DNA from: Halalkalicoccus jeotgali B3
Lineage (GTDB): Archaea; Halobacteriota; Halobacteria; Halobacteriales; Halalkalicoccaceae
NCBI RefSeq assembly: GCF_000196895.1
Contig: NC_014299.1
Location: 248,001-312,000, forward strand
DNA: 64,000 nucleotides
Reading direction: 5' to 3'
The notes under the pieces: model-generated
The model's database searches: none
The model's input: only the letters and a program-made list of their open reading frames with translations
What the model was told of the DNA's origin: nothing
Shown here: in pieces, positions 4,300 through 34,717 of the stretch
Position numbering within the stretch: position 1 is the stretch's first letter
Layout of the letters: the number at the start of each line of letters is the position of its first letter
Program-made: the position numbers and the translations under genes

Positions 4300-6906
4300 A
4301 TGTTTCACCTCCACATGGCAGATGATAACTCATCTCAACAGGGGAGAGAAGCAGATCAACTCGGCACATGGCCACTCTCACGCCGTGCATTCGGCGGACT
4401 TACTGCCGGTACGCTCGGAGCGATCCAGCTGGGGGGGTTGGCCGCTGCTGCCACCAAAAACACGCCAGAGAAGCACGACTCAATCTGTTACGAAGTCGAG
4501 GGATTAAAAGAATCCGCGGAGATTCTCGTCGATCAGTGGGGTGTGCCCCACATGTACGCCGAGGATGTCCAAGACGTCGCGTTCGTACAGGGATTCAACG
4601 CTGCGCGCGATCGCCTCTGGCAGATTGATCTTTGGCGCCGGCGTTCGTCAGGCGAACTGTCCGAGGTATTTGGTGAGGAATGGATCGAGCACGATCGTGG
4701 TGCGCACCTCTTCAGCTATCGCGGTGATATCGATGAGGAGTGGGACGCCTACGGGCCCGATGCAGAAACTATCGCCACCGGGTTTGCCAACGGCGTTAAC
4801 GCGTTCATCGATCAAACCGAAGAGAATTCTGATCTGCTGCCAGTCGAGTTCAAGGCACTCGATTACGAACCACGACGCTGGGAACCAGAAGACATCGTTC
4901 GGATGCGTGTCCATGCGATTACGCTCAACGTCTCAAGTGAGGTCCAACGAGCGATCACGCTCCGGGAGTTCGGCGAGGATGTCGAACGGGTCCGCCAGTG
5001 GCTCAACCCCGAAGATTGGGAAATCGAAATCCCGGATGGACTCGATCTCGATCTCATTCCTGAAGATGTTCTCGATGTTTTTGAGGCGGCGACCATGTCC
5101 CATACGAGTGTTTCATTCGACGAGGACGACATTCGGAATCCCGAGGTACTTGACGATCTCTCGGTCCTCACGAACAGTGGCGGTTCGACTGGTACGGATC
5201 CGTCTGGCAAATCGGATCAGATGAACGAGAAAGAGGAGATCCCATCTGCAAGTAACAACTGGGTGGTCGGACCCGAACTCACTGAAACAGGGCGGCCGAT
5301 TCTCGCGAACGACCCGCACCGCGCTCACAACGTTCCCTCACTGCGATATATCGCGCATATCAGCTCCCCTGAATTTGACGTCATTGGAGCGGGCGAGCCG
5401 GGGCTTCCGGGGATTTCGATCGGTCACAACGGGAATACAGCGTTCGGACTCACGATCTTCTATATCGACCAGCAAGATCTGTATGTCTATGAGACGAACC
5501 CAGATGATCCAAACGAGTACCGCTACGAGGACGACTGGGAGTCCATGGACGTGGAAACGGAAACGTTCGAGATCAGAGACGGCGAGGATCAAGAAGTCGA
5601 ACTGAAGTTCACTCAACATGGGCCGGTGATTTACGAGGATCCCGACGAGAATATCGCATTCGCGGTCCGAACTGTCTGGACAGATCCCGGCACGACGGCC
5701 TACTTCGGTGGGATTGGATATATGCGTGCTGAGAATATTGATGAGTTCCAAGACGCAATGGAGGGCGAACTCACACCAGGCATGCAGGGATGGGGCGCGC
5801 CGCCGGAGAATCAAGTTGCTGCCGACACGGATGGAAATATCGGATGGTTCCCAGGCGGGAGAACACCCGTTCGGCCCAACTGGGATGGGTTGCTACCAGT
5901 CCCTGGGGACGGCCGCTATGAGTGGGATGGCTACCAACATCAGTCCAATCTACCACGAGAGGTCAATCCTGATCGAGGTTGGATTGCGACCGCTAACCAC
6001 TTCAATCTCCCTGACGACTATCCGGTAGACGATCCGCCAATCGGCTTTGAGTGGGTAGCGCCATATCGGTACCAGCGAATCGCAGAAGTTCTCAGCGAAT
6101 TTGACGAGGAGAATACGCACTCGCTTGAGGATTCGACTGACCTTCAGACGGATTTCCTCTCAATTCCCATTCGGATCATTACCGAAGCGCTTGCTGAAAC
6201 CGACCCGAATGAAGATCGGTTGGTCGAAGCTCGCGACTGGCTTACAGCGTGGGATGCTGTTCTTGATGCTGATTCGGGCGAGGCAGCCTTGGCAGAAGTC
6301 TGGTTCGAGAAGCACCTCCAAGAAGCAGTGACCATTGAACTCATCGGGAAAGAGGCGTTTGATCACATTGGGACGGGTGATGTCCGCGTCCTTCTTGAGG
6401 CAGTTGAGGAGCCCGAGCAACGCTTCGGCAATGATCCAGTTGCCACTCGTGATGAGCTGTTACTTTCGACACTTGCTGATGCACTTGATGAGGTTGAGGA
6501 GTTACTTGGCGAGAATCGAGATGAGTGGGCATGGGGTGACTTGAAGAAGGCGTTCTTCGAGCATGCAATGTCGTCTGGTGTCGATGAAGAGGCTGCCGAA
6601 TCGCTAAACGTTGGACCAGAGCCAATGGGAGGAAGCGGGTACACCGTATGGAACGCCAACTACAACGATGACTTCCAATTGACCTCTGGCGCATCGTGGC
6701 GGATGGTTATCGATGTTGGCGGATGGGATAATTCACTGGCAATGAGTGTGCCTGGTCAATCTGGTGATCCTGAAAGCCCGTTCTACGACAACCTACTCGA
6801 AATGTTCGTCAACGGTGAGTACTTCCCACTACTCTATACCCGTGAGGCTATTCAAGACGCTTGTACGAAGAAAATCGAACTCGCCCCACAAGCCACGGAT
6901 GATTAA
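4300..6906 (+). CDS. Penicillin acylase family amidohydrolase, Tat-exported
   Basis: 868 residues with an N-terminal Tat signal (LSRRAFGGLTAGTLG at about 26-40). An ATG five codons in may be the true start. The family is made as one chain, then cut autocatalytically so that a Ser becomes the N-terminal nucleophile of the beta subunit. Here that is Ser318 in PSASNNWVVGPE. Beta-subunit marks follow: ANDPHRAHNVPSLRY, GLPGISIGHNGNTAFGLT and a late GGSGYTVWNANY. The alpha part carries DQWGVPHMYAED and GFNAARDRLWQIDLWRR. Family members hydrolyse beta-lactam side chains, acyl-homoserine lactones or other N-acyl amides; the substrate cannot be told from sequence. No operon partner. It is one of several amide-hydrolysing enzymes in the window. 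Confidence 0.9.
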   Translation: MFHLHMADDNSSQQGREADQLGTWPLSRRAFGGLTAGTLGAIQLGGLAAAATKNTPEKHDSICYEVEGLKESAEILVDQWGVPHMYAEDVQDVAFVQGFNAARDRLWQIDLWRRRSSGELSEVFGEEWIEHDRGAHLFSYRGDIDEEWDAYGPDAETIATGFANGVNAFIDQTEENSDLLPVEFKALDYEPRRWEPEDIVRMRVHAITLNVSSEVQRAITLREFGEDVERVRQWLNPEDWEIEIPDGLDLDLIPEDVLDVFEAATMSHTSVSFDEDDIRNPEVLDDLSVLTNSGGSTGTDPSGKSDQMNEKEEIPSASNNWVVGPELTETGRPILANDPHRAHNVPSLRYIAHISSPEFDVIGAGEPGLPGISIGHNGNTAFGLTIFYIDQQDLYVYETNPDDPNEYRYEDDWESMDVETETFEIRDGEDQEVELKFTQHGPVIYEDPDENIAFAVRTVWTDPGTTAYFGGIGYMRAENIDEFQDAMEGELTPGMQGWGAPPENQVAADTDGNIGWFPGGRTPVRPNWDGLLPVPGDGRYEWDGYQHQSNLPREVNPDRGWIATANHFNLPDDYPVDDPPIGFEWVAPYRYQRIAEVLSEFDEENTHSLEDSTDLQTDFLSIPIRIITEALAETDPNEDRLVEARDWLTAWDAVLDADSGEAALAEVWFEKHLQEAVTIELIGKEAFDHIGTGDVRVLLEAVEEPEQRFGNDPVATRDELLLSTLADALDEVEELLGENRDEWAWGDLKKAFFEHAMSSGVDEEAAESLNVGPEPMGGSGYTVWNANYNDDFQLTSGASWRMVIDVGGWDNSLAMSVPGQSGDPESPFYDNLLEMFVNGEYFPLLYTREAIQDACTKKIELAPQATDD

Positions 6907-10125: not shown

Positions 10126-10869
10126 ATGCCCAACGGTGATACAGCTCTTGTGACCGGTGGCTCGGGTGCGATCGGGCGTGCGGTTGCTCCGACGCTCGCC
10201 CGGGTGGGGTTCGATGTCACTGTCGCATACCATCGAGACGAAGCGGGAGCGAAAGCGGCTGCCGAAGCGGTCCGAGAGCACGGTCAGCGAGCGACGATCG
10301 TCCAGGCCGATATCCGCGATACCGAAGAGGCGGCTGCACTCGTCGAACAAGCAGCCACCTTAGGGCCGGTCGCCGTCGTGGTCAACGGCGCGGGGGCCGT
10401 CAATCCCGGGCCGGTTGAGGAGGCACCCGATAGCATCGGGAACGTGCTCGCAGTTAACGTGGAGGGCGCGATCAACGTCACGACACCGGCGATCAAATTG
10501 CTTCGAGAGAACGATGGAAGCGTGGTCAACATCAGCAGTGTCGCGGCGGTCCACGGTACCGTCGATACGACCTACGCGACCGCGAAAGCGGGCCTGCTAG
10601 GATTTACGAGATCGCTCGCGCGGGAAGTCGGCCCAGATGGCGTCCGCGTCAACGCCGTCGCACCCGGACCGGTAGACACCCCGATGAACGACACGATCAC
10701 CGATTCGCTCGAGGACCGTCGGTTTCGTGGCCACCACACCGTTGATACGCTCCTCGATCGGTATGAGGCGACGCCGGAGGAGGTCGCATCCGCAGTGCGG
10801 TTTCTCGCGACCCACGAGTTCATCACCGGCGAAATATTGCATGTCGACGGCGGGATGTCGCTCAGTTGA
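10126..10869 (+). CDS. SDR-family oxidoreductase (FabG-like)
   Basis: 247 residues, the usual length for a classical short-chain dehydrogenase/reductase. Visible marks: cofactor loop TGGSGAIG (10-17), NGAG in place of NNAG (87-90), catalytic Ser in NISSVAA (137/138), Tyr150 and Lys154 in YATAK, VNAVAPGPVDTPM, and the C-terminal ITGEILHVDGG. It probably reduces a carbonyl or oxidises an alcohol with NAD(P). It converges on the LuxC-like gene with a 46-bp gap. A role downstream of that acyl reductase (aldehyde to alcohol) is attractive but inferred. Confidence 0.9.
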   Translation: MPNGDTALVTGGSGAIGRAVAPTLARVGFDVTVAYHRDEAGAKAAAEAVREHGQRATIVQADIRDTEEAAALVEQAATLGPVAVVVNGAGAVNPGPVEEAPDSIGNVLAVNVEGAINVTTPAIKLLRENDGSVVNISSVAAVHGTVDTTYATAKAGLLGFTRSLAREVGPDGVRVNAVAPGPVDTPMNDTITDSLEDRRFRGHHTVDTLLDRYEATPEEVASAVRFLATHEFITGEILHVDGGMSLS

Positions 10870-10915: not shown

Positions 10916-12301
10916 TCAGCTCGGATCGTAGGTTGTCGTCCGATAGAGGAACGAGGTGAGATATGTCTCGTGTGTTTCCCGGAGATCGACGGACGCGGGG
11001 TACCGCCCGCCGTACACGTTCGCGATCGCTGGCGAGCGGACCAGCGTTCGTTCGAGGTCGTCGCTCCCGACCACGACCGCAAGGTAGGCGCCATCGGGGG
11101 GCACGACGGCGTCGGACTCGCGGTCGGTAACGCCGGCGAATTGGAATGGGAGTTCGGGGACCAGCGTATCCGTTCGAAAGACAGTCGGACGCAACCGGGC
11201 GATACCGTCTCGTTCGACGAGGTGCTGCTCGCAGTACGCAGCGGTGACGTCCTGTCCCGGAATACGCCTTATAGCGTTAGTTACCTGTTCAGCCGTATCC
11301 GGGGCGAATCCCGGAACGGTGGCCTGCTCGTCGATTAATGATCCGTATGTCGGTCCGCTCAGTTCCGTGACCCGACGGGCGAGCCGCTTGGCCAGCACGT
11401 CGCCGTTACACTCGCCCGTCGCGACGATCCGAGTGAGACAGTAGCATGCCCGTCCGGCCGAACGGAGCACGCCACGGGCGAGGGAATCTAGCTCTTGCTC
11501 CGTCGGCTCACGGGCGAGGACGGCGATGCTCTGTCCCGGCCCGTACGTCTCGACGCTCGGCTCAGTCCGAAACGACCCTACCGCGTCTTCGGTGCCGAAC
11601 GCTATCGCGTGGTCGGTCTCGCGACACACGGTCTTACCGATCGACCGATCGCCTGGGAGCACGTGGACCGCCGATTCGGGGACGCCGGCACCCCGGAGAG
11701 CGCGGGCCAGTCGAATCGCCGTCAGGGGATCACGGTCAGATGGTCGGAGGACGATCGGTATCTTCATCGCAAGCGCGAGAGCCGGCCAAGCGTACACTGC
11801 GGGATCGTTCGATGGCATCATCCCACCGAGGACCCGCACACGAGGTGTGAACGCCAACCCGACGTCGCTTTCCCGGGTGTAGGCCGGGTCGTCGTACACA
11901 TCGAGGGCGCCAGTGGGCGACTGGGCACGCAGCGACTCGGCGGCGTGTCTGAGACCGAACGCAAGCCAGTGAGCGCTCGTCCGTACCCAGCCCGCTGGCA
12001 GCCCCGTCGCCTTGACGACGCTTCGCTGGTATCGGTCGAACGGGACACAAGAGGTAGTGGAACTTGCCGCCGGCGCGCCCTCGTCGACGAACAGCTGTCC
12101 GGCGGTCGCGATCCGATCAAGCAGGGTCCCTACCGGTAGCGCCTGCAACGCGTCGAAGCCGTCCTCGCGTGCCGTCAAGACGGCGTCGTGGACGGTGACG
12201 TGGGGCGTTCGCGCCACCTCGTAGAGCGGTTCCCCACCGATCGCCTCGAAAAGCATGGTGCGAGCCGTTTCGGTCTCGCCACTGGAGACGACGGGGAGCA
12301 T
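10916..12301 (-). CDS. LuxC-like acyl reductase (aldehyde-dehydrogenase fold)
   Basis: 461 residues, close to the about 480 of LuxC-type acyl-CoA/acyl-protein reductases. Residues 155-200 carry the cofactor-binding run (LGGMMPSNDPAVYAWPALAL, then PIVLRPSDRDPLTA). The likely catalytic Cys is in SAGRACYCLTRI (Cys286 or Cys288). Family knowledge: LuxC reduces an activated acyl group to the aldehyde with NADPH, after activation by an acyl-adenylating partner. That partner type lies immediately upstream in the same operon. The pair therefore reads as a two-component carboxylic acid reductase. It is unlikely to concern bioluminescence, as no luxAB is present. The acid is unknown. Confidence 0.7.
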   Translation of the reverse strand: MLPVVSSGETETARTMLFEAIGGEPLYEVARTPHVTVHDAVLTAREDGFDALQALPVGTLLDRIATAGQLFVDEGAPAASSTTSCVPFDRYQRSVVKATGLPAGWVRTSAHWLAFGLRHAAESLRAQSPTGALDVYDDPAYTRESDVGLAFTPRVRVLGGMMPSNDPAVYAWPALALAMKIPIVLRPSDRDPLTAIRLARALRGAGVPESAVHVLPGDRSIGKTVCRETDHAIAFGTEDAVGSFRTEPSVETYGPGQSIAVLAREPTEQELDSLARGVLRSAGRACYCLTRIVATGECNGDVLAKRLARRVTELSGPTYGSLIDEQATVPGFAPDTAEQVTNAIRRIPGQDVTAAYCEQHLVERDGIARLRPTVFRTDTLVPELPFQFAGVTDRESDAVVPPDGAYLAVVVGSDDLERTLVRSPAIANVYGGRYPASVDLRETHETYLTSFLYRTTTYDPS

Positions 12302-15540: not shown

Positions 15541-16650
<1,110 letters not shown>

Positions 16651-19029: not shown

Positions 19030-21012
19030 TCAGTCATCATCTGCACTCGTCGACTCTGATCCACAAGCATCGGGTTCTGGTGGAACGTGGACCGACGGAT
19101 TCTCATCAAAGAACCCTTCGGGAGCGATCTCGAAGCTGGCAATCTCAACCGGTAGGACAGGCCAATCTTCGGGCCGTGTGCGGTGATTGACCCCTAGTGT
19201 GTACCAGGCGACGAGATCCTCTTGTTCGATATTGCGATCCGCCTTCGTCCATTCTCGGAGACCGTGAGGATTGTCGTTTTGATTCGGGTAGTCCCCATCC
19301 GCGAACATCTCATCTTCATTGTAGGGAGTTACCCAGAAATTGTTCTCGAGAAAGCCAGCGCGTCTTTGGGCGGGTGATCCTGACTGCATTGGTGAGGCGA
19401 CGTTGGTGGCCGGATGGAGTGTGTATCCGGTATTATAGCCATACGAGTTCGTCTCATTTGGATTGACGATCTTCCAATATCGATCCCGCAATGGATCGAT
19501 ATCCATCCGTGCTTCCTGCTCGGTTTCCAGCAACGTTTCGTCAGCATACCAGCCTTGGCCTCCCGTATTGTCCGATTCTTCGTGGGTCCAAGCAATATCG
19601 TCGACGGGCTCATTATGGATTTCGAACGCTGAATTCGTTTCACCGTCGACGTCGAAATCAAGCCGGAAATTGAAGTGATGTTGGTGGATCGAAGTCTTGA
19701 CTTGCGGGGCAACCACCTCATAGAATCCATCTGTGTCATCCGCCGTCGTTCCTTGGGGCACGACTCCATTCGAGTCGATTCCAGTGAGGCGCATTTCGGC
19801 CTCTATACGTCCATCTTGATAGAAGTACCAGTAGAACGCATAGTCGTAGTTATAGACAGTAGCGATTTGTGAGACAACAAGTCGCCGCCGCCGGCGCACT
19901 TCTGTCTGGTCTTCTTGACGCCACTCCGTATGCTTCCACAGCAACCCATCATCTTCTTCGTGCATGCAGATCGCGTTGGGAATCTCTAAGACATTCCCGT
20001 CCCGATCATTCGTAACTGCATCGAAGTAATACATCTCACCTAGACAATCACAGCCTTCGGTGAGCGAGTTCACCATTCGGCCGACATTGAACTCACTGAT
20101 GTCAAAGGCGTTTTTCCAGTTGTGATTGGGATCAACATCGCCATACGGAACCGCCATGGCCGATGTAGACGCACGATGGAGGATTTTTCGCGTATCCCCG
20201 TCGTCATCGAACCTGATGTTGTGCAGGACAAGCCCTTCACGATCAGTCCAGCCGACACGGAATTTCCATCCTTGCCACTCGACTTCTCGGCCGTCAACTT
20301 CCCAGCTTGTTCCCTCCGGTTGAATCACATCGAGGTGCTCCCGATCGTCTCGCGTGTCGATTAGGTCTGGTTTGTAGTTTGCGTCCTCGGGCGGCAGCGG
20401 GCTGTCCTCGTCGACCACACCATTGTCGACGACTTCGACGACTTCCATTTCATCAAGGTCAACGAAGGCGTGGACTCCTTCAATAGGTCGTGCGTACGCG
20501 TTATCCTCTTTACTTTCCGCGATCCAGGAGAGGCCACGTGCAAGGCGTCGGCCCTCGAGACCGTCAGGAACGAATTCACTGCTGTTGATCGGCCACGGAT
20601 CAACGATTGCAAGATCGAAGTTTTCAACGCCACGTTTTTTCGCCGCCTCTTGCCACTCTTCGCTTTGTCTAACCGCCTCTTCAGCTTCGAAGATGTCTTC
20701 GCCAGGAATATGCGGCTGAGCATCTGGGAGACGTTCCCAAGACGTTACCTCACTGTCAGGGAGTGAAACGGTTGCTTCATACGTTGTCTTTTCCTGAAAA
20801 TCCCGAAGTGCGACTAAAACGTCTCTATCAACTGAACCACCATCCCAGGCTTCAACTTCTTCTTTCGAAGGCTCGACCGGTTGATAGCTATAGAATCCGA
20901 AGGTACTACCGATCTTTTGGCTTTCTTGGAGAATTTCGGTCGTGGAGTTGATCTCTGCTTCGGTCAGTGGGTCAAGTGGATGCTCGACCGTGGGAGTTTC
21001 TACTTGTGCCAT
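19030..21012 (-). CDS. Copper amine oxidase (primary-amine oxidase)
   Basis: 660 residues, the usual length for bacterial/archaeal cytosolic forms and without a signal peptide. The quinone cofactor precursor is Tyr389 in TVYNYDYAFYW (motif T-x-x-N-Y-D-Y). The catalytic base is Asp304 in NAFDISEFNVGRM. Copper ligands are His443 and His445 in SIHQHHFNFR and His610 in LGVNHRTRPEDWPVLP. It oxidises primary amines to aldehyde, ammonia and hydrogen peroxide. It is divergent from the dimethylformamidase genes, with a 21-bp perfect palindrome ending 3 bp before its ATG. Dimethylamine is secondary and not a classical substrate, so any shared pathway is an inference. Confidence 0.92.
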   Translation of the reverse strand: MAQVETPTVEHPLDPLTEAEINSTTEILQESQKIGSTFGFYSYQPVEPSKEEVEAWDGGSVDRDVLVALRDFQEKTTYEATVSLPDSEVTSWERLPDAQPHIPGEDIFEAEEAVRQSEEWQEAAKKRGVENFDLAIVDPWPINSSEFVPDGLEGRRLARGLSWIAESKEDNAYARPIEGVHAFVDLDEMEVVEVVDNGVVDEDSPLPPEDANYKPDLIDTRDDREHLDVIQPEGTSWEVDGREVEWQGWKFRVGWTDREGLVLHNIRFDDDGDTRKILHRASTSAMAVPYGDVDPNHNWKNAFDISEFNVGRMVNSLTEGCDCLGEMYYFDAVTNDRDGNVLEIPNAICMHEEDDGLLWKHTEWRQEDQTEVRRRRRLVVSQIATVYNYDYAFYWYFYQDGRIEAEMRLTGIDSNGVVPQGTTADDTDGFYEVVAPQVKTSIHQHHFNFRLDFDVDGETNSAFEIHNEPVDDIAWTHEESDNTGGQGWYADETLLETEQEARMDIDPLRDRYWKIVNPNETNSYGYNTGYTLHPATNVASPMQSGSPAQRRAGFLENNFWVTPYNEDEMFADGDYPNQNDNPHGLREWTKADRNIEQEDLVAWYTLGVNHRTRPEDWPVLPVEIASFEIAPEGFFDENPSVHVPPEPDACGSESTSADDD

Positions 21013-21014
21013 AA

Positions 21015-21035
21015 GACATCGTGTAACACGATGTC
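21015..21035. promoter_or_regulatory. 21-bp perfect palindrome, probable operator
   Basis: Arms GACATCGTG and CACGATGTC flank TAA. The palindrome lies 3 to 23 bp upstream of the amine-oxidase start codon, in the 264-bp divergent region shared with the dimethylformamidase genes. Nine-bp perfect arms at a start codon are what a dimeric repressor site would look like; a 5'-leader hairpin is the alternative. No second copy was noticed in the window. Confidence 0.6.
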
Positions 21036-21276
21036 ATGGAAGATTGTTAAATTTTTGCCGTGATAGGAGAGCAGAATGAGCGTCGGGTTCCCCGGTAAGC
21101 GAGTCCCCGTTGTTCTTCTTCGCCCGTGTTGCAAATGTGCTTGAGCGTTCAGTGCTTGATGGTTTAGCTCTGGTATGTCACTATTTATCGTCTTAGAAAT
21201 GTTCTTATTAAAGATTTCAAGAGTCACCCAAACAATTATACATGTGGGTCTTCACCATGGATGGTAGTATCAAGCA

Positions 21277-21819
21277 ATGTCAGAGCTTGAAGGAGTATCA
21301 GACAGAGCCAAGTATTATGAGACAGTTGGGCAGACATTAGCGGATCGAGCTGGGATCGATCCAGACCGATACGGAGCCACATATGAGGATATCGGTCGTC
21401 AGCTTATGACCATGAGCGGTGGGCCGCTGTCCGCCCCCGCTGAGCAGGCGTACAGCGAACTTGACGAAGGGATTGCCAAGCGGGAGATCCTCCCACGGAT
21501 TAACACAGAACTGATCAAAGAGCACAAAGAACACCCAATTGGTCGACATAGTGATGATTTAGAGCGGGTTCTAAATTATTTCAGACGACAGCCTATGGAA
21601 GGCAAATATGTTATTCTCGAAACCGAGAAATTTGAAGAATTTTACATCGGCGAACTACCCGGGGTGCGGGGAGAACCGCCGGAAAAGTTAGATAATCCAC
21701 TTGCCGGGATTGACGAGGCCAAGGATCTCCCCTATCCGTTGAAGTCGGTAGAACAGGCCGAACATGCCGTTTTCCTGAGGCGCATCAAAGACTTGCAGAA
21801 TAAATTCGACGATTCATAA
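21277..21819 (+). CDS. dmfA1: N,N-dimethylformamidase small subunit
   Basis: 180 residues. The second half follows the bacterial DmfA1 pattern as I recall it: EILPRINTELIKEHKEHPIG, LERVLNYFRRQPMEGKYVI and the C-terminal AEHAVFLRRIKDLQNKF. The bacterial subunit is about 130 residues, so this one has roughly 50 extra N-terminal residues. It lies 18 bp before the large-subunit gene, the same order as dmfA1-dmfA2. Family knowledge: the small subunit packs on the large one and is needed for activity; the enzyme splits DMF and related formamides into dimethylamine and formate. Confidence 0.8.
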   Translation: MSELEGVSDRAKYYETVGQTLADRAGIDPDRYGATYEDIGRQLMTMSGGPLSAPAEQAYSELDEGIAKREILPRINTELIKEHKEHPIGRHSDDLERVLNYFRRQPMEGKYVILETEKFEEFYIGELPGVRGEPPEKLDNPLAGIDEAKDLPYPLKSVEQAEHAVFLRRIKDLQNKFDDS

Positions 21820-21837
21820 CATAACACAGATAACACA

Positions 21838-24150
21838 ATGGCCATCAATGAATTCCCAACAAAAGAACTGACTGGATATACTGACCAGTGGAGTTTTCAA
21901 CCAGGTGATACCGTGCCGTTCATGGTTAACTGTGACGGTCCAGATGAGTACGAGGCCGAGATTGTTCAAGTTATTTGTGGGGACCTGAACCCGGATGGTC
22001 CCGGAGTGAAAGAAGAGGTAATTAACGCCTCAGTGAATGATACGTACGAGGGGCGACCACAGGAAATTCATGCCGGATCATATGCAAAGGTCTCAGACAG
22101 CCATCATCTCAGTGTTAGCGGTGGATTGACTGTACAGGCGATGGTTCAGCCTACCCTTCCAGATGCAGGGGAGCAGGCGTTGCTCACTAAGTTCGCAGAC
22201 AACACAGGATATGGTCTCTATATTAGTCAAAGTGGTGACCTCTGTCTACGACTCGCCGGATCTAACGGTGAGATCGTTGAAGTGAACTCTGGACTCGTTT
22301 TTGAAGGCGGTAAACGGCAAGGAGCGACGTGGTACTTTGTTGGAGCTACTTTTGACCCCGATGATGGAACCGTCACCCTCTATCAGGAACCTCACCCAGA
22401 GAACCAGCGGAAGATCCTCCATCCTATTGATGAGTACGAAGCGATGGTTGAGGAGTCGGTCGACATCAACGGAATTGCGACGAATGATAGCCCTCTCGTC
22501 ATTGGGGGAGAACCGATGGAAACGGGCAACGGTGTGGTTGCGAAAAGCTGTTACAATGGCAAACTAGAACGACCCCAGGTGTTTAGTGAGGCACTTGACC
22601 TAGCTGACATGCGCTCAGCTATTGCTGACGAACCGCCGACTGACGTGGCGAGTTCATTGGTGGGTGCTTGGGATTTTTCTGAAGGCATCACTTCAGACGG
22701 CATTCCGGAGTACACAACGGTCGTAGACATCTCGCCCCACGAAAATCACGGTAAATTGGTGAACACACCTGCTCGAGGGATGATTGGTTACAACTGGAGC
22801 GAAGATGAGTACAACTTCACAAACGCGCCGGAGGAGTATGGCGCGATCCACTTCCATCATGATGACCTAACGGATGCGGATTGGGAGGTGGATTTTGAGT
22901 ATACACTTCCCGAAGGAATGGACAGCGCGGTGTACGCGGCCCGATTAACTACTGAGAACGACGAGACCTACATCCCCTTTTTCGTCCGTCCAGAGAAACC
23001 TGAGGATACAGCGGACATCGCTTTTCTTGCCCCCACTGCGAGCTACCTTGCTTACTCAAATGACCATCTGACGACGGACGGGGTAATCACCGAACCACTC
23101 TCAGGTCAGGTGTCGGTTATGCGGCAAGAGGACCTCTATCTAAGCGAGCACCGCGAGTACGGTCTTTCGTGCTATGACAGTCACGCAGACGGTAGCGGCG
23201 TTTTCTATTCATCACGGAAGCGTCCTATCCTGAATATGGTGCCAAAGTATAAGCACTGGCTGTCATCAGTGCCCAGCACACTATGGCAATTCAACGCAGA
23301 CCTCCATATTGTTGATTGGTTGGAGGAGAAAGGATATGATTTCGATGTGATCACTGATGAGGATCTCTACGAGGAAGGTGCTGACTTGCTTGAACCGTAC
23401 AACGTAGTTCTCACAGGGAGCCATCCAGAGTACTACTCCTCAGAGATGTGGGACGGTGTATTATCCTACCAGCAGCAGGGTGGTCGGTTTATGTATATGG
23501 GTGCCAACGGCTTCTACTGGTCTATCGCATTCCACCCTGAAGACTCCCAGACCATTGAGGTCCGGCGGGGAATCACTGGATCGGGCGCCTGGTTTAACAA
23601 CCCGGGCGAGCTGCGACACAGTTTCACTGGAGAAATGGGTGGGATCTGGCGCGACCGCAATAAACCACCTCAGAAACTCGCTGGTGTCGGATGGATTGCC
23701 GAGGGGTTCGACAAATCCTCATATTACCGACGTAAACCAGACAGCTACGAATCCGAAACTGAGTTTATCTTTGAGGGGATTGAGAGCGAGGTCCTTGGCG
23801 ACTTCGGCCTTATTGGTCACGGTGCCGCGGGCCTTGAACTCGATATCTACAACGAAGACTTAGGAACGCCCGAACACACATACCTCCTCGCCTCTTCGGA
23901 GGATCACACGCCGAACTACCTCCGCGTTGTTGAGGAAATATTCTTTGACCTTCCCTCTTATGAAGGAGGGCAGGATCCCGAAGCACGTGGCGACATCGTT
24001 TACTATAAATTACCCAACGATGGCGCGGTCTTCTCAACTAGTTCCATCGGTTTCCACGGAAGCCTCTCTCACGATAGCTACGAGAACAATATTTCGAAAA
24101 TGATCGAAAACGTCTTGGATGCGTTCAAAGAGGACGGGACGCTCCCATAG
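21838..24150 (+). CDS. dmfA2: N,N-dimethylformamidase large subunit
   Basis: 770 residues, near the about 760 of bacterial DmfA2. An N-terminal beta-rich region is followed by a LamG/concanavalin-like domain (about 80-265: LTVQAMVQPTLPDAGEQALL, TKFADNTGYGLYIS). The C-terminal catalytic part (about 460-765) has NADLHIVDWLEEKGYDFDV, LTGSHPEYYSSEMWDG, GGRFMYMGANGFYW and GEMGGIWRD. The bacterial enzyme holds a mononuclear iron between two Tyr and one Glu. The Tyr in HPEYYS, the Tyr in ANGFYW and the Glu in EMGGIWR are candidates. No formate or dimethylamine dehydrogenase lies next to it. Confidence 0.85.
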   Translation: MAINEFPTKELTGYTDQWSFQPGDTVPFMVNCDGPDEYEAEIVQVICGDLNPDGPGVKEEVINASVNDTYEGRPQEIHAGSYAKVSDSHHLSVSGGLTVQAMVQPTLPDAGEQALLTKFADNTGYGLYISQSGDLCLRLAGSNGEIVEVNSGLVFEGGKRQGATWYFVGATFDPDDGTVTLYQEPHPENQRKILHPIDEYEAMVEESVDINGIATNDSPLVIGGEPMETGNGVVAKSCYNGKLERPQVFSEALDLADMRSAIADEPPTDVASSLVGAWDFSEGITSDGIPEYTTVVDISPHENHGKLVNTPARGMIGYNWSEDEYNFTNAPEEYGAIHFHHDDLTDADWEVDFEYTLPEGMDSAVYAARLTTENDETYIPFFVRPEKPEDTADIAFLAPTASYLAYSNDHLTTDGVITEPLSGQVSVMRQEDLYLSEHREYGLSCYDSHADGSGVFYSSRKRPILNMVPKYKHWLSSVPSTLWQFNADLHIVDWLEEKGYDFDVITDEDLYEEGADLLEPYNVVLTGSHPEYYSSEMWDGVLSYQQQGGRFMYMGANGFYWSIAFHPEDSQTIEVRRGITGSGAWFNNPGELRHSFTGEMGGIWRDRNKPPQKLAGVGWIAEGFDKSSYYRRKPDSYESETEFIFEGIESEVLGDFGLIGHGAAGLELDIYNEDLGTPEHTYLLASSEDHTPNYLRVVEEIFFDLPSYEGGQDPEARGDIVYYKLPNDGAVFSTSSIGFHGSLSHDSYENNISKMIENVLDAFKEDGTLP

Positions 24151-24192: not shown

Positions 24193-24807
24193 ATGCTTCC
24201 TATTGTCTGGATGAGCAATATTGGACTTCTGAGTGAGTGGCTACGATGGCCATGGATAGTGGTGTACGCAGTCGTTACGGTCGTTCATCTATCGCACGCG
24301 ATTGATACTGATTGCCGGCAGGTGTGGCATTCCAATCACGTTGTAATGGCTGTCGGGATGGGATACATGTTTCTCCCTACACGCCTGAAGGCGGTATCTG
24401 ATGAGGTGTGGCAGATAACGTTCATTATAATCGCAGCAACCATCGTTGTGTGGGTACTGCATTTGTGGGCCACTCAGCGGACGATTGACTTCCTCTGGAT
24501 GATCTCACTATTCGATGTAGTAGCAATGATCTATATGTTCGCGTTTCCAGAGGCAGCGATTGCGCCACTCACTTATCTCCTCGTCATTTATTTCATCTTA
24601 GAAACAATAGTATGGATGGGCGGAGTGTTTGATCATACTAGACAATGGGGTAGATTGCTACCGGTACTAATCCATTCTCGCTTGTACTCTCGACTCATCT
24701 TTCATGAGCCGCTGGTTGGTAGTAGTTCAGGCAGAGAGCGTATGACACTCAGTGCGATGGCAGCCGGGATGGCGTATATGTTCATTATCATGCAGAGTGG
24801 CATGTAA
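24193..24807 (+). CDS. DUF5134-like membrane protein
   Basis: 204 residues with six or so hydrophobic helices. 'HSNHVVMAVGMGYMFLPT' is the tell-tale segment: His in a Met-rich helix, as in DUF5134 proteins, where 'HxxMxxGMxxM' suggests metal handling. A second Met-rich helix ends the protein (MAAGMAYMFIIMQSGM). It follows the dimethylformamidase large-subunit gene by 42 bp on the same strand and may be co-transcribed. A role in copper or iron supply to the neighbouring enzymes is a guess. Confidence 0.6.
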   Translation: MLPIVWMSNIGLLSEWLRWPWIVVYAVVTVVHLSHAIDTDCRQVWHSNHVVMAVGMGYMFLPTRLKAVSDEVWQITFIIIAATIVVWVLHLWATQRTIDFLWMISLFDVVAMIYMFAFPEAAIAPLTYLLVIYFILETIVWMGGVFDHTRQWGRLLPVLIHSRLYSRLIFHEPLVGSSSGRERMTLSAMAAGMAYMFIIMQSGM

Positions 24808-24923: not shown

Positions 24924-25458
24924 ATGCAACTCGAGGCCGAACTCAACCGCAAGGATAAGCGCGTCGAGGAACTGGAAGCACAGCTCACCGAGTACAAGCG
25001 CTTTGCCGGCTCGGAGTTCGCGGACGTTCGCGGGCGAATCACCGACGTCGAAGATCGGGCCGACGAACTCGAAACGACGCTCCAGGAGACGCCTACGGAG
25101 ACCACCACCGTCGACGTCGAGGAGACCGACTCCCAGACCACGACCACGGAGACACCATTAGAACGCATCTGTACGCTCCCAGAGCACGTCGCCGACCGGG
25201 AGCTCACGACCAACCAGCAACGAGCACGCTTCATCGCACAGGACGTTCGCGATTACGCCGAGAAAGCGCCTGCGGGGCTCGTGCTCGATAGCCAGACGAT
25301 CGCGAAGGTCATCACTGCCGCCGAAGGATCGAAGCCTCACACCAGACTGTGGCCCGCGTCATGGATTTCCTTGAGAAACTGGGGAAAAACGACGTCGAGC
25401 AGACGAAACGACGCGGGAAGAAGCTCGTAGTCGTTGACGAAGAGGCAGCCGACCGATA
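24924..25458 (+). pseudogene. Coiled-coil/winged-helix gene, broken (copy C)
   Basis: Homology begins inside the coiled coil (LEAELNRKDKRVEELEAQL) at about 24927, after unrelated DNA. It continues to a 1-base loss in the codons for SKPHTQTV near 25343, after which the rest is read in another frame. It ends at a stop at 25456-25458 right after EEAADR, without the normal C-terminus or 3'-flank repeat. The upstream Cys-rich gene is also missing. It lies directly before the HTH/PIN pair, whose insertion may have truncated it. Confidence 0.8.
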
Positions 25459-28461: not shown

Positions 28462-29166
28462 ATGAGCGACACTACAACGACCAAGAGCACCGCCACTGAC
28501 CAGCCTACGACGACCGACGAGCCAACGCTTAAGTCGGTCTGGGAACAGCTCGAAACACTCACCGACCGTGTCGAGGAGCTTGAAGCCGAAATCGAGTGCA
28601 AGGACGATCGAATCGACGAGCTTGAAGCACAGCTCACCGAGTACAAGCGCTTTGCCGGTTCGGAGTTCGCGGACGTTCGCGGGCGGATCACCGACGTCGA
28701 AGACCAGACCGACGAGCTCGAAACCACGCTTCAGGAGACGCCCACGGAGACCACCACCGTTGCCGCCGAGGAGACTGGCTCCCAGACCACGACTACGGAG
28801 ACACCGTTAGAACGCATCTGTACGCTTCCCGAGCACGTCACTGATCGCGAACTCACGACCAACCAGCAACGCGCTCGCTTTATCGCACAGGACGTACAGA
28901 ATTACGCCGAGAAGGCACCTGCTGGGCTCGTGCTCGATAGTCAGACGATCGCGAAGGTCATCACTGCCGCCGAAGGGTCGAAGCCTCACACCCAAACTGT
29001 GGCCCGTGTCATGAACTTCCTCGAGAAGCTGGGGAAAGACGACGTTGAGCAAACCAAGCGTCGCGGGAAGAAACTCGTCGTCATCGAGAAGGAGGCGGCC
29101 GACCGCTATCACGATCGTTGTGACCGGGATATTGAGCAACCCCCCGCAGAAGACGTGATATCCTAA
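28462..29166 (+). CDS. Coiled-coil/winged-helix protein of the repeat module (copy D, intact)
   Basis: 234 residues, colinear with copy A. Ser/Thr-rich start (MSDTTTTKSTATDQP), coiled coil (EQLETLTDRVEELEAEIE), Thr/Glu linker, then winged-helix-like domain with DSQTIAKVITAAEGSK and TKRRGKKLVV. Stretches equivalent to 1696-1790 and 1870-2028 are the same base for base as copy A, while the coiled coil differs at many codons. This mosaic pattern points to gene conversion. It stands alone without its Cys-rich partner and is followed by the palindrome repeat. Function unknown. Confidence 0.75.
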   Translation: MSDTTTTKSTATDQPTTTDEPTLKSVWEQLETLTDRVEELEAEIECKDDRIDELEAQLTEYKRFAGSEFADVRGRITDVEDQTDELETTLQETPTETTTVAAEETGSQTTTTETPLERICTLPEHVTDRELTTNQQRARFIAQDVQNYAEKAPAGLVLDSQTIAKVITAAEGSKPHTQTVARVMNFLEKLGKDDVEQTKRRGKKLVVIEKEAADRYHDRCDRDIEQPPAEDVIS

Positions 29167-29432: not shown

Positions 29433-31811
29433 ATGACATTCGAGACAATTGACGCGAGAAATATACCGCCAAGCGAACTCATCGGCTCGGCGATCCAACG
29501 TCGGGAGGACCCCCACCTCCTGACGGGGGAGTCAGAGTACACCGACGATATCCAGTATGATGGAGAGGTTCACCTCGGACTTCTGGGAAGTCGGTACGGT
29601 CATGCTCGCATTGAAAGCATTACTACAACCGACGCAGCGATGATGGATGGCGTGCTCGGTGTGTATACCTGGAAGGACATACAGAAATCTGACGCACCAG
29701 GCTATATGCGAGTTGATAACCCTACAGAAGGATCGGCTGAGTCGGATACTGACACCGGGGCGGTCGCACCAGAGCACCCACTATTAGCCGACACTAAAGT
29801 CACCTATCAGGGACAGCCCGTCGCCGCCGTCGTCGCAGAAGATCGATATACGGTCCGCGATGCACTCGAGAGTATCGCCGTCGACTACGAGCGGTTGGAC
29901 GCTATCATCGATCCCCGGGATGCGCTATCCGAAGATGTCCCCCAGATACACGAGACGAACGGTGAAAACCTCGCCTTCGAGTGGGAGACAGGTGATGAGG
30001 ACGCCGCGGAAGCCACACTCGCTACAGCCGACAACGTCGTAACCGTGGATTTCGAGATCAACCGCGTGATTCCAACGGCGATGGAGCCCCGAACCGCCGT
30101 CGCACAATATCATTCTTCGGATGACGAACTCGCTGTCGAGCTGTCGACACAGAACCCACACCAAGTTCGAGCGGACCTATCGGCAACACTCGGTACCCCC
30201 GAGAAGCAAATCAGGGTTCGGCCACCCGACGTTGGCGGTGGGTTTGGCGCGAAGCTGTTTCCCTATACCGGCCACCTCCTCGCGGGTTGGTGTGCGAGGC
30301 GACTCGAACGCCCGGTGAAGTGGGTCGCGCCCCGTACCGAGGACTTTCAGTCGATGATTCACTCACGTCACCACATCGTTCACGCACAGGCTGCCGTCGA
30401 CGACGACGGAACGATCCGTGGATTTCAGGCGGATACGACAGTTCCAGTGGGTGGATTTCTCGTTCCGAACGGGTCAGGTGTTCCGACGAATCTAGGAGTG
30501 ATGGCGAACGGTCAGTACGACATCCCTGCGGCATACGTCCAAACGAGAGGAGCATTTACAAATACCGCTCCGCTTTCGGCGTATCGGGGAGCCGGCCGTC
30601 CAGAGGCAACGTACTTCATCGAACGGCTTGTGGAGACGGTTGCCCGAAAAATCGACGTGGACCCTGCCGACCTCCGTCGAAAGAATTTCATCCCTCCGGA
30701 GGCCTTTCCCTTCGAGACAGGACTCGGACGGACGTACGATTCGGGGGAGTACGACGAAACGCTGACCACGGCACTTGGAACGGTCGACTACGAGACGTTT
30801 CGCGAGCGCCAGCAACGAGACCGTGAGGAGGGTCGATACCGGGGCATTGGTCTATCGTGTTACGTCGAGGCGTGTGGCGCCGCGCCCGGATTGCACGAGT
30901 CGGGTGCCGTTCACGTCGAGCCGTCGGGACGTGTCGTCGTCAAAACGGGGACCGCTGAAATCGGGACCGGTCATCGAACCGGATACACACAGATCGTTGC
31001 CGACGAATTGGGAGTTCTCTTCAATGACGTCGAGATTATCGAAGGAGACACCGCAGAAATCGCAGAGGGGAACGGAACCGCTGGTAGCAGGGCTATGCCC
31101 GTCGGTGGTAGTGCTCTCAAGCAGAGCGCCGAGGAAATCGTCGAGAAGGGACGTGAGATCGTAGCGAATCAACTGGAGGCATCAAAAGCAGACATCGAGT
31201 TTGCGGATGGCGAGTTCTTCATTAGTGGCATTCCAACTCGGACACTGACCATCCAAGAAGTCGCGGAGATCGCTCATGACGAGTCCGGCACTCTCCCGGA
31301 CGGAATGGACCCTGGACTCGCCGCAACGACCGATTTCGACCCACCGAACTACACGTTTCCGTTCGGGACCCACGTCGCAGTCGTGGAAGTCGATCCGGAC
31401 TCGGGGGAGATCGATCTCGAACGATACGTGGCAGTCGACGACGTCGGCACGCAGATCAATCCGAAGATTATCGAAGGACAAATCCATGGTGGGGTGGCTC
31501 AGGGGATCGGGCAGGCACTCTACGAGGAAGCCATCTACGACGACAACGGCAATCTTCTGACTGGCTCAATGCAAGACTACGCGATACCCAAGGCCGAACA
31601 CCTTCCAGATATCGAGTGGTACTCAACAGTAACACCCAGTCCGTACAATCCACTTGGAGTGAAAGGGGTCGGGGAGGCCGGTGCCATCGCGGCACCACCG
31701 GCAATCGTTAATGCCGTTATCGACGCGATTGAGCCGTTCGACGTCGATACGATCGATATGCCGCTCACACCCGAAACGATCTGGACGGCGATCCAGAGAG
31801 AGTGCGAGTAG
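29433..31811 (+). CDS. Molybdenum hydroxylase large subunit (xanthine/CO dehydrogenase family)
   Basis: 792 residues, usual for the family. The N-terminal domain has IGSAIQRREDPHLLTGESEY. Cofactor-domain marks are PDVGGGFGAKLFPYTGHLLA, the active-site loop SAYRGAGRPEATYFIER (form II type, not the AYRCSFR of true CO dehydrogenase), GTAEIGTGHRTGYTQI, and near the end LGVKGVGEAGAIAAPPAI, whose Glu is the expected general base. The enzyme normally works with an FAD subunit and a 2Fe-2S subunit, and neither is present here. It is bounded by two direct copies of the palindrome repeat. It may use subunits encoded elsewhere or be stranded. Substrate unknown; probably an aldehyde or N-heterocycle. Confidence 0.88.
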   Translation: MTFETIDARNIPPSELIGSAIQRREDPHLLTGESEYTDDIQYDGEVHLGLLGSRYGHARIESITTTDAAMMDGVLGVYTWKDIQKSDAPGYMRVDNPTEGSAESDTDTGAVAPEHPLLADTKVTYQGQPVAAVVAEDRYTVRDALESIAVDYERLDAIIDPRDALSEDVPQIHETNGENLAFEWETGDEDAAEATLATADNVVTVDFEINRVIPTAMEPRTAVAQYHSSDDELAVELSTQNPHQVRADLSATLGTPEKQIRVRPPDVGGGFGAKLFPYTGHLLAGWCARRLERPVKWVAPRTEDFQSMIHSRHHIVHAQAAVDDDGTIRGFQADTTVPVGGFLVPNGSGVPTNLGVMANGQYDIPAAYVQTRGAFTNTAPLSAYRGAGRPEATYFIERLVETVARKIDVDPADLRRKNFIPPEAFPFETGLGRTYDSGEYDETLTTALGTVDYETFRERQQRDREEGRYRGIGLSCYVEACGAAPGLHESGAVHVEPSGRVVVKTGTAEIGTGHRTGYTQIVADELGVLFNDVEIIEGDTAEIAEGNGTAGSRAMPVGGSALKQSAEEIVEKGREIVANQLEASKADIEFADGEFFISGIPTRTLTIQEVAEIAHDESGTLPDGMDPGLAATTDFDPPNYTFPFGTHVAVVEVDPDSGEIDLERYVAVDDVGTQINPKIIEGQIHGGVAQGIGQALYEEAIYDDNGNLLTGSMQDYAIPKAEHLPDIEWYSTVTPSPYNPLGVKGVGEAGAIAAPPAIVNAVIDAIEPFDVDTIDMPLTPETIWTAIQRECE

Positions 31812-33112: not shown

Positions 33113-34717
33113 ATGAATGACGAACCGACATCGGAAAGACGAACTGTTCTAAAAGGTCTTGGTGCTGTAGGTTTCGGCACGTTCACTGCAGGTACTGCAG
33201 GAGCGCGAACCGCTACAGATGATACCAATCATTTCGAAGTTATTGAAACGACCGTTGCCGAGTTTCACTCAGCGGTCGAATCTGGATCAATTAACGCCGA
33301 GGGGATTACTAAACGGTATCTAGCGCGAATCAAAGCGTATGATGATGAACTCAATTCGTTAATTACGATAAATACCAACGCCGTCAACCGCGCGCAACAC
33401 TTAGATAGAGAATACGAAGATTCTGGGACAGTTGGCCCTCTGCATGGCGTTCCTGTCGTTCTCAAAGATAACCACGATACACGTGACATGCCGACGACGG
33501 CGGGGTCAGTTGCCTTGGCCGACTCCCTTCCTCCAGAAGACGCGTTTGTGGTTCAACAACTGCGCGAAGCAGGCGCAATCATCCTCGCCAAAGCGAACCT
33601 CCAAGAATTCGCCTACGGCGTCGATACAGTCAGTTCGCTCGGTGGAGAGACGAGTAATGCATACGACCTCAACCGACGGCCGTCGGGATCAAGTGGCGGT
33701 ACTGCAGCTGCTATCGCCGCAAATCTCGGATTACTCGGAACAGGGTCGGACACCTGTTCGTCGAATCGATCTCCTCCAGCATTCAACAATTTGGTCGGGA
33801 TTCGGCCCACGATCGGACTACTGAGTCGGTCAGGAATTATCCCATTAAGTGAGACCCAGGATACAGTCGGACCGATGACGCGGACGGTTGCTGACGCGGC
33901 AGCGATGTTAGAGGTGCTCGCCGGCTATGATCCTGAAGATCCAGTGACGGCAAGAGGAGCTACTGCAATCCCAGATGAGGGATACACGGACTGCCTAAAC
34001 GATGACGGTCTCCAAGGGGCACGAATTGGTGTCATCAGAGACTACTTCGATTTACAGGATGGCGAACTCGAGCTTGAGGAAGAAAACGAGGCTGTAGTAT
34101 CGGTGCTAGAGAAGGCAATCGGCGATATAGAAGCCGAGGGTGCAACTATCGTGGACTCGGTCGATGTGATCGATCAGGAGTTCTTAAGTGGGGCTCGAGT
34201 CACTGACCTCGAATTCAAACGCGATCTCAACGCGTATTTAGAGAGCCTCGGAAACGACGCTCCCGTCGATTCAATGGAAGAGATACTTGAATCGGGACAG
34301 ATACACCCGGAGGTAGCCGCGCGGATAGAAGAAGCAGGGATTCCCGATGTAGATGTCGAATCACTAGGAGAGAACCCCGACTACCTTGAGCGTCTAGTGA
34401 GGCGGACCGAAATCAGAGATATTGTACTTCAGACAATGGTTGAGCAGGATCTCGATGCGCTTCTCTATCCTCCATCGACGGTACCGCCAGTTTCAATTGA
34501 GGAAAACCAACCATTTAGCGAGATGAACTGTGAGCTGAGTGCGCATTCTGGCCTTCCTGCAATTGTTGTCCCCGCTGGATTCACTGGCGATGGACTTCCA
34601 GTAGGGGTAGAGTTGCTGGGACGCGAGTTCGCGGAACCAAGGTTGATTGAACTAGCGTACGCGTATGAACAGGCGGTCCAACATCGCTGTCCTCCCAACA
34701 AGTTCGGGCCACTTTAG
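33113..34717 (+). CDS. Amidase-signature hydrolase, Tat-exported
   Basis: 534 residues. The Tat signal is SERRTVLKGLGAVGFGTF at 7-24. The amidase Ser-cisSer-Lys triad can be placed: Lys118 in HGVPVVLKDNHDT, cis-Ser194 in PSGSSGGTAAA and nucleophile Ser217 in GSDTCSSNRSPP. The usual DTGGS is replaced by DTCSS, a variant I associate with secreted plant/fungal-type amidases. SGIIPLSETQDTVGPMTRTV and the late SGLPAIVVPAGF follow the family. It hydrolyses an amide outside the cell, substrate unknown. Monocistronic, facing the serine hydrolase gene at 34988. Confidence 0.9.
   Translation: MNDEPTSERRTVLKGLGAVGFGTFTAGTAGARTATDDTNHFEVIETTVAEFHSAVESGSINAEGITKRYLARIKAYDDELNSLITINTNAVNRAQHLDREYEDSGTVGPLHGVPVVLKDNHDTRDMPTTAGSVALADSLPPEDAFVVQQLREAGAIILAKANLQEFAYGVDTVSSLGGETSNAYDLNRRPSGSSGGTAAAIAANLGLLGTGSDTCSSNRSPPAFNNLVGIRPTIGLLSRSGIIPLSETQDTVGPMTRTVADAAAMLEVLAGYDPEDPVTARGATAIPDEGYTDCLNDDGLQGARIGVIRDYFDLQDGELELEEENEAVVSVLEKAIGDIEAEGATIVDSVDVIDQEFLSGARVTDLEFKRDLNAYLESLGNDAPVDSMEEILESGQIHPEVAARIEEAGIPDVDVESLGENPDYLERLVRRTEIRDIVLQTMVEQDLDALLYPPSTVPPVSIEENQPFSEMNCELSAHSGLPAIVVPAGFTGDGLPVGVELLGREFAEPRLIELAYAYEQAVQHRCPPNKFGPL

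Follow-up and report, generated by a model that had tools for sequence, protein, structure and literature searches.

A haloarchaeal gene pair of the dimethylformamidase type next to a copper amine oxidase gene in Halalkalicoccus jeotgali B3

The 64,000-nucleotide stretch of Halalkalicoccus jeotgali B3 contig NC_014299.1 between positions 248,001 and 312,000 (the window) carries two adjacent genes, dmfS and dmfL, that are related to the small and large subunits of the N,N-dimethylformamidases (DMFases). A copper amine oxidase (CuAO) is encoded divergently next to them. An earlier sequence-only reading of the window had proposed a small-then-large pair beside a divergent amine oxidase, and all three genes were found just where it had placed them. 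The pair is a divergent archaeal member of a known enzyme family and brings no new mechanism. No paper describing an archaeal DMFase was found in a literature search, and automatic annotation may well name dmfL as a DMFase.

The gene pair and its neighbors

The features of the locus, in window positions, are listed below (aa, amino acids).

19030-21012, minus strand: CuAO, 660 aa (NF008559, 1.6e-262; PF01179, 1.1e-151)
21013-21276, no strand: divergent intergenic region between the CuAO gene and dmfS
21277-21819, plus strand: dmfS, small subunit, 180 aa (6lvb_B, 2.2e-8)
21838-24150, plus strand: dmfL, large (catalytic) subunit, 770 aa (PF20254, 3.8e-90; 6lvb_A, 9.5e-161)
24193-24807, plus strand: DUF5134 membrane-protein gene, downstream of dmfL (PF17197, 2.8e-8)

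The open reading frames (ORFs) of dmfS and dmfL are both intact, are separated by 18 bp and follow the order small to large. The characterized reference is the enzyme of Paracoccus sp. strain DMF (ParDMFase, 6lvb), together with the near-identical one of Methylobacterium sp. DM1 and DmfA1/DmfA2 of P. aminophilus pAMI2. Residues 11-768 of dmfL match the solved ParDMFase chain 6lvb_A, and the homology to the large subunit thus extends over its whole length. A Laminin_G_3 match precedes the C-terminal PF20254 (DMFA2_C) domain, which marks the DmfA2-type large subunits of the two-subunit DMFase family.

The small subunit has no match in Pfam or NCBIfam; its relationship was recognized from the match to the DMFase small subunit 6lvb_B. 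The AlphaFold2 (AF2) model of dmfS has a mean predicted local distance difference test score (pLDDT) of 74, and the only Protein Data Bank folds matching it at E below 0.001 are 6lvv_B, 6lvb_B and 6lvd_B, all of them DMFase small subunits. A DmfA1 homolog is therefore encoded directly upstream of the large subunit, as is characteristic of the family. The extension of the small subunit that had been pointed out earlier was confirmed: the conserved part starts after about 67 residues, whereas in the subunits of Paracoccus and Rhodococcus about 23-30 residues come before it, and the model places extra helices at residues 8-25 and 36-46. The intergenic region presumably carries the promoters of both divergent transcripts. 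Large parts of it are conserved in G194, a congener, despite the deletion of dmfS and dmfL in that genome.

The CuAO has the hallmarks of its class. The topaquinone (TPQ) precursor Tyr in N-Y-D/E, the catalytic Asp and the three Cu-binding His align with Y382, D298, H431, H433 and H592 of the phenylethylamine oxidase of Arthrobacter globiformis (AGAO), to which the protein is 39% identical. The gate residue Tyr296 of AGAO is replaced by Ala, so that the substrate preference may differ. No papers on haloarchaeal CuAOs were found in the literature search.

Active site of the large subunit

The functional positions of dmfL were read from a MAFFT alignment of 26 homologs, using the residue roles established for ParDMFase. 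In that enzyme Y399, Y440 and E521 are the Fe ligands, H519 is essential, N547 and E657 are further functional residues, and F693 is a pocket constriction supplied by the neighboring subunit (PMC7686228). The corresponding positions of dmfL, all on the plus strand, are as follows.

23041-23055, plus strand: SYLAY motif, S402 to Y406, from the alignment; Y406 is the first Fe ligand (Y399)
23173-23175, plus strand: Y446, second Fe ligand (Y440), in the column marked by the Y440A chain 6lvd
23422-23430, plus strand: H529-P-E531, essential His (H519) and third Fe ligand (E521), in the column marked by the E521A chain 6lve
23506-23508, plus strand: N557, proposed oxyanion residue (N547), from the alignment
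23836-23838, plus strand: E667, proposed catalytic base (E657), from the alignment
23944-23946, plus strand: F703, gate or pocket constriction from the neighboring subunit (F693), from the alignment

At the sequence level, all seven functional positions are identical to those of ParDMFase. Loss of the iron ligands had been named beforehand as the result that would speak against a DMFase, but Y406, Y446 and E531 are all present. Given the intact genes and the whole-length match to 6lvb_A as well, the claim of a complete haloarchaeal two-subunit pair holds for an enzyme of the DMFase type.

The Fe ligands and the His are nearly invariant across the 26 sequences and are shared by the N-acetyl-(R)-beta-phenylalanine acylase 8huy, an enzyme of the same superfamily that is 34% identical to dmfL. 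Because the acylase keeps them too, these residues identify an Fe amidohydrolase of the superfamily and are no proof of DMF (N,N-dimethylformamide) specificity. The gate column (F693) is more selective. It contains Phe in the window, in the haloarchaeal genome G334, in a Thermoleophilia metagenome-assembled genome (MAG), in pAMI2, pAMI5 and DM1, and in Rhodococcus; elsewhere other residues occupy it, Ser in the case of the acylase. A second, tandem DMFase-like large subunit of Aminobacter MDW-2 (L025:8426-10747) has Ala in both the E521 and E657 columns, and is likely to be an inactive partner or to have a different activity.

Distribution, relatives and age

In a survey of 391 genomes of the class, four had dmfL in full length, namely the window's genome, G334 (82% identity), G129 (53%) and G312 (44%); the archaeal branch of the family is thus rare. 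One further genome, G344, has only a weak partial match within a different protein of 511 aa. The pairing of the subunits is obligate: dmfS was found in exactly the four genomes that hold dmfL.

A maximum-likelihood tree unites the large subunits of the four archaea in a single clade (100/99), nested in a small-subunit-bearing group (98/96). The characterized DMFases (6lvb, DM1 and pAMI2) cluster with homologs from Mycobacterium and Rhodococcus. The acylase 8huy pairs with a Bordetella homolog for which no small-subunit gene was detected in the vicinity (100/99), apart from dmfL, which hence is not a member of the acylase group. The archaeal pair has in common with the ParDMFase group the two subunits, the gene order, the large-subunit domains, the Fe ligands, the His, Asn and Glu of the active site and the gate Phe. 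However, dmfL is only about 39-40% identical to these enzymes, and the archaeal pair is strongly acidic, forms a separate clade, has the longer small-subunit N terminus and lacks an adjoining LuxR-type regulator. The nearest bacterial relative found is the pair of the Thermoleophilia MAG (L013), with about 50% identity in the large subunit, the same gene order and the gate Phe. Unlike in the window, its small subunit has 121 aa, its proteins are not acid-shifted and there is no CuAO match within 9 kb.

Plasmid records with dmfL homologs number 91, and in 64 the match covers at least 80% of the query; the gene contexts vary. The bacterial sample leans on plasmids and contains only 5 bacterial loci from one scan of genome contigs. 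The family thus extends beyond a small circle of DMF degraders, and the earlier statement that DMFase is known from a few bacteria was too narrow. Some bacterial homologs adjoin transporters of the AmiS/UreI type or the branched-chain ATP-binding cassette (ABC) type. In several rhizobial plasmids the small-subunit homology forms the C-terminal ~95 residues of a branched-chain-type ABC permease of 551-552 aa, encoded directly upstream of the large-subunit gene.

L023:6308-7963: permease-small-subunit fusion, Agrobacterium pAt
L025:4275-5930: permease-small-subunit fusion, Aminobacter MDW-2
L030:4943-6601: permease-small-subunit fusion, Ensifer M8

The C terminus of the fusion is 40% identical to residues 68-173 of dmfS (E 4e-22), and the end of the BPD_transp_2 domain is near residue 395. 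The same fusion seems to be present in about 20 more records of rhizobial plasmids; it would physically couple the amidohydrolase with its importer.

The composition of the archaeal proteins is shifted towards acidic residues, as is typical of haloarchaea. The window's dmfL has an isoelectric point of 4.26 and an acidic excess of 11.7%, whereas the values for ParDMFase are 5.10 and 4.6%. Between the window and G334 the nonsynonymous divergence (dN) is 0.12, and synonymous sites are saturated. The two dmfL genes differ at 108, 65 and 441 sites in codon positions 1, 2 and 3, respectively, and this preponderance of third-position differences is the pattern expected under purifying selection. Since the archaeal enzymes form their own clade, are acid-shifted in composition and have saturated synonymous differences, the pair is not a recent acquisition. 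A recent transfer from bacteria is unlikely, given the composition and the divergence. The sequence-only reading had proposed acquisition by transfer. The distribution agrees with this, but the event would be old; one old transfer, presumably from bacteria, would be the simplest route of entry into the haloarchaea.

The window sits on a 363-kb contig with a sampled GC content of 0.50-0.54, compared to 0.56-0.63 in two samples of the 2.8-Mb contig. The sister species G194 has the same locus, with the CuAO intact at 99% protein identity, but a 2.7-kb deletion replaces dmfS and dmfL. At the scar (L057:10281-10450) a degraded fragment of dmfS covering its first ~26 codons is left, and within ~50 bp of it stand the final few codons of dmfL. 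Because both gene ends are retained, the locus most likely held the pair before the two species diverged, and G194 has since lost it by deletion. The flanking CuAO and DUF5134 genes are intact around the scar, and the DUF5134 protein is 92% identical to that of the window. As it is kept in the absence of dmfL, DUF5134 probably does not belong to the enzyme system. It was considered as a transporter for the pair and rejected, because G194 retains it without the DMFase and it is not found beside dmfL in G334. No dmf remnants were seen beside the CuAO genes of G029, G364, G134 and G289 or at a second locus of G334; the scar is confined to G194.

In G334 the CuAO gene lies about 1 kb upstream of the pair in tandem orientation. 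Repeats with transposase-like ORFs (L007:4593-5277, 10159-10854 and 19863-20000, on a 104-kb contig) bracket CuAO, dmfS and dmfL, so this stretch could be mobile. In the window, similar genes for coiled-coil-like proteins are repeated in the flanking region at 24924-25430 and 28462-29166 (stretch LEELEAELTEYKRFAGSEFADVRGRITDVE or close to it), and such a gene recurs next to the CuAO gene of G194 (L057:6829-7533). A TnpB-like ORF of 268 aa with Cas12f1-like TNB and OrfB_IS605 domains is located at 15844-16650; it is short for a TnpB and therefore perhaps truncated.

Possible substrates and the amine oxidase

The dmfS-dmfL product is probably a two-subunit mononuclear Fe(III) amidohydrolase of the DMFase type, the most likely substrates being small N-substituted formamides. 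We infer its iron content, activity, substrate and pathway from comparison, and the mechanism is transferred by analogy from ParDMFase. In the large subunit Y406, Y446 and E531 would coordinate the Fe(III), which would serve as a Lewis acid. E667 would activate water, N557 would hold the oxyanion, and H529 would be required for catalysis. The small subunit would stabilize the complex and line the entrance, and F703 from the partner subunit would narrow the pocket. A small N-substituted formamide, similar to N-methylformamide or DMF, would thus be converted to formate and an amine. If the amine is primary, the CuAO might oxidize it further, a step suggested by the gene order.

A small formamide is favored because the small subunit and the gate Phe are shared with the DMFases and the gate Phe is absent from the acylase. 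The position of dmfL in the tree, within the enzymes that have a small subunit and apart from the acylase, also favors the DMFase type. The AmiS/UreI-type and branched-chain-type transporters beside bacterial homologs point the same way. ParDMFase prefers N-methylformamide by kcat/Km, and larger acyl groups gave no product (PMC7686228). Several observations weigh against this assignment. Although dmfL lies beside the clade of biochemically characterized DMFases, it falls outside it, and the pair has therefore been filed as DMFase-type rather than as a proven DMFase. The gate column is Ala or Ser in G129 and G312, the two more distant archaeal members. Other small-subunit-bearing relatives are accompanied by polyamine-type transporters or alanine racemase, and because the contexts are so different the substrates across the family are probably diverse. 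Lastly, the AF2 model of dmfL, calculated from six sequences, has a mean pLDDT of 49.5 with the active-site regions below 50; Foldseek ranked 6lve, 6lvb and 6lvd at the top with this low-confidence model, at a template modeling score of only about 0.47.

The diversity of contexts, together with the Fe ligands common to the acylase, lends some weight to an enzyme of the same kind that acts on a larger N-acyl amine or amino-acid derivative, 'DMFase' then being a family label. The window also holds a penicillin amidase (4300-6906) and an amidase (33113-34717), and the adjoining AGAO-type oxidase suggests aromatic or larger amines. Such a substrate is nevertheless rather improbable, since the small subunit and gate Phe are those of DMFases and the tree separates dmfL from the acylase. 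It is very unlikely that the pair is recently acquired or decaying and without function in its host. The patchy distribution, the lower-GC contig and the loss in the sister species would fit such a reading, but the ORFs are intact, every catalytic residue is kept, dN is low against saturated synonymous change, and the composition is acid-shifted.

An addition to the DMFase-type explanation is a dedicated pathway, in which formamide is cleaved to formate and a primary amine, and the CuAO converts the amine to aldehyde, ammonia and H2O2. This is a tentative proposal and somewhat doubtful. Both the window and G334 have a CuAO adjoining the pair, and a primary-amine oxidase lies about 5 kb from the DMFase-type pair of a Rhodococcus plasmid; all three have Ala in place of the gate Tyr296. 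By a rough estimate, a CuAO within ~1 kb at two of the four loci is unlikely to be due to chance in genomes of 3-4 Mb with 1-3 CuAOs, although the two loci would amount to one event if they go back to a single old pairing. However, this type of CuAO occurs in 45 of the 391 genomes, nearly all without a DMFase, and the pairs of G129 and G312 lack a nearby CuAO. G194 lost the pair and kept its CuAO, which therefore does not depend on the DMFase. Furthermore, CuAOs act on primary amines, and dimethylamine released from DMF would not be a substrate. One co-inherited module of CuAO and DMFase is not clearly supported, as the window's CuAO groups with that of G194 (100/100) and the copy beside the pair in G334 clusters with chromosomal CuAOs of its congeners G134 and G289 (100/99). 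Owing to the saturation of synonymous sites, one old pairing and two separate pairings look alike. Thus, of the proposed amine oxidase link, the adjacency is real and the functional tie is plausible but weak.

DMF was introduced in 1893 (PMC7686228). It is usually thought of as man-made, but the existence of a divergent, old and salt-adapted archaeal branch means that the family must have natural substrates, and the archaeal pair bears on what these are. It is unlikely that haloarchaea run an undescribed natural formamide pathway in which an iron enzyme of the DMFase type yields formate and a primary amine that the CuAO oxidizes for carbon and nitrogen; if true, this would reveal a natural, pre-industrial class of DMFase substrates. 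The Paracoccus enzyme has its optimum at about 2-2.5 M NaCl (PMC7686228), so that a haloarchaeal relative is a reasonable choice both for removing amides from brines and for a search for the natural substrate.

A second, distinct CuAO, 47% identical to that of the window, is encoded on the same contig about 9-11 kb before the window start (G000:C3:237162-239135). In G364 (L059:8246-12481) two different CuAO genes stand side by side and divergently, in the layout of CuAO and dmfS in the window. The catabolic genes near the pair comprise, besides the penicillin-amidase-like and amidase genes mentioned above, an aldehyde-dehydrogenase-like gene (10916-12301) and the gene for a molybdopterin hydroxylase large subunit (29433-31811), and the region may be an island of amide, amine and aldehyde catabolism.

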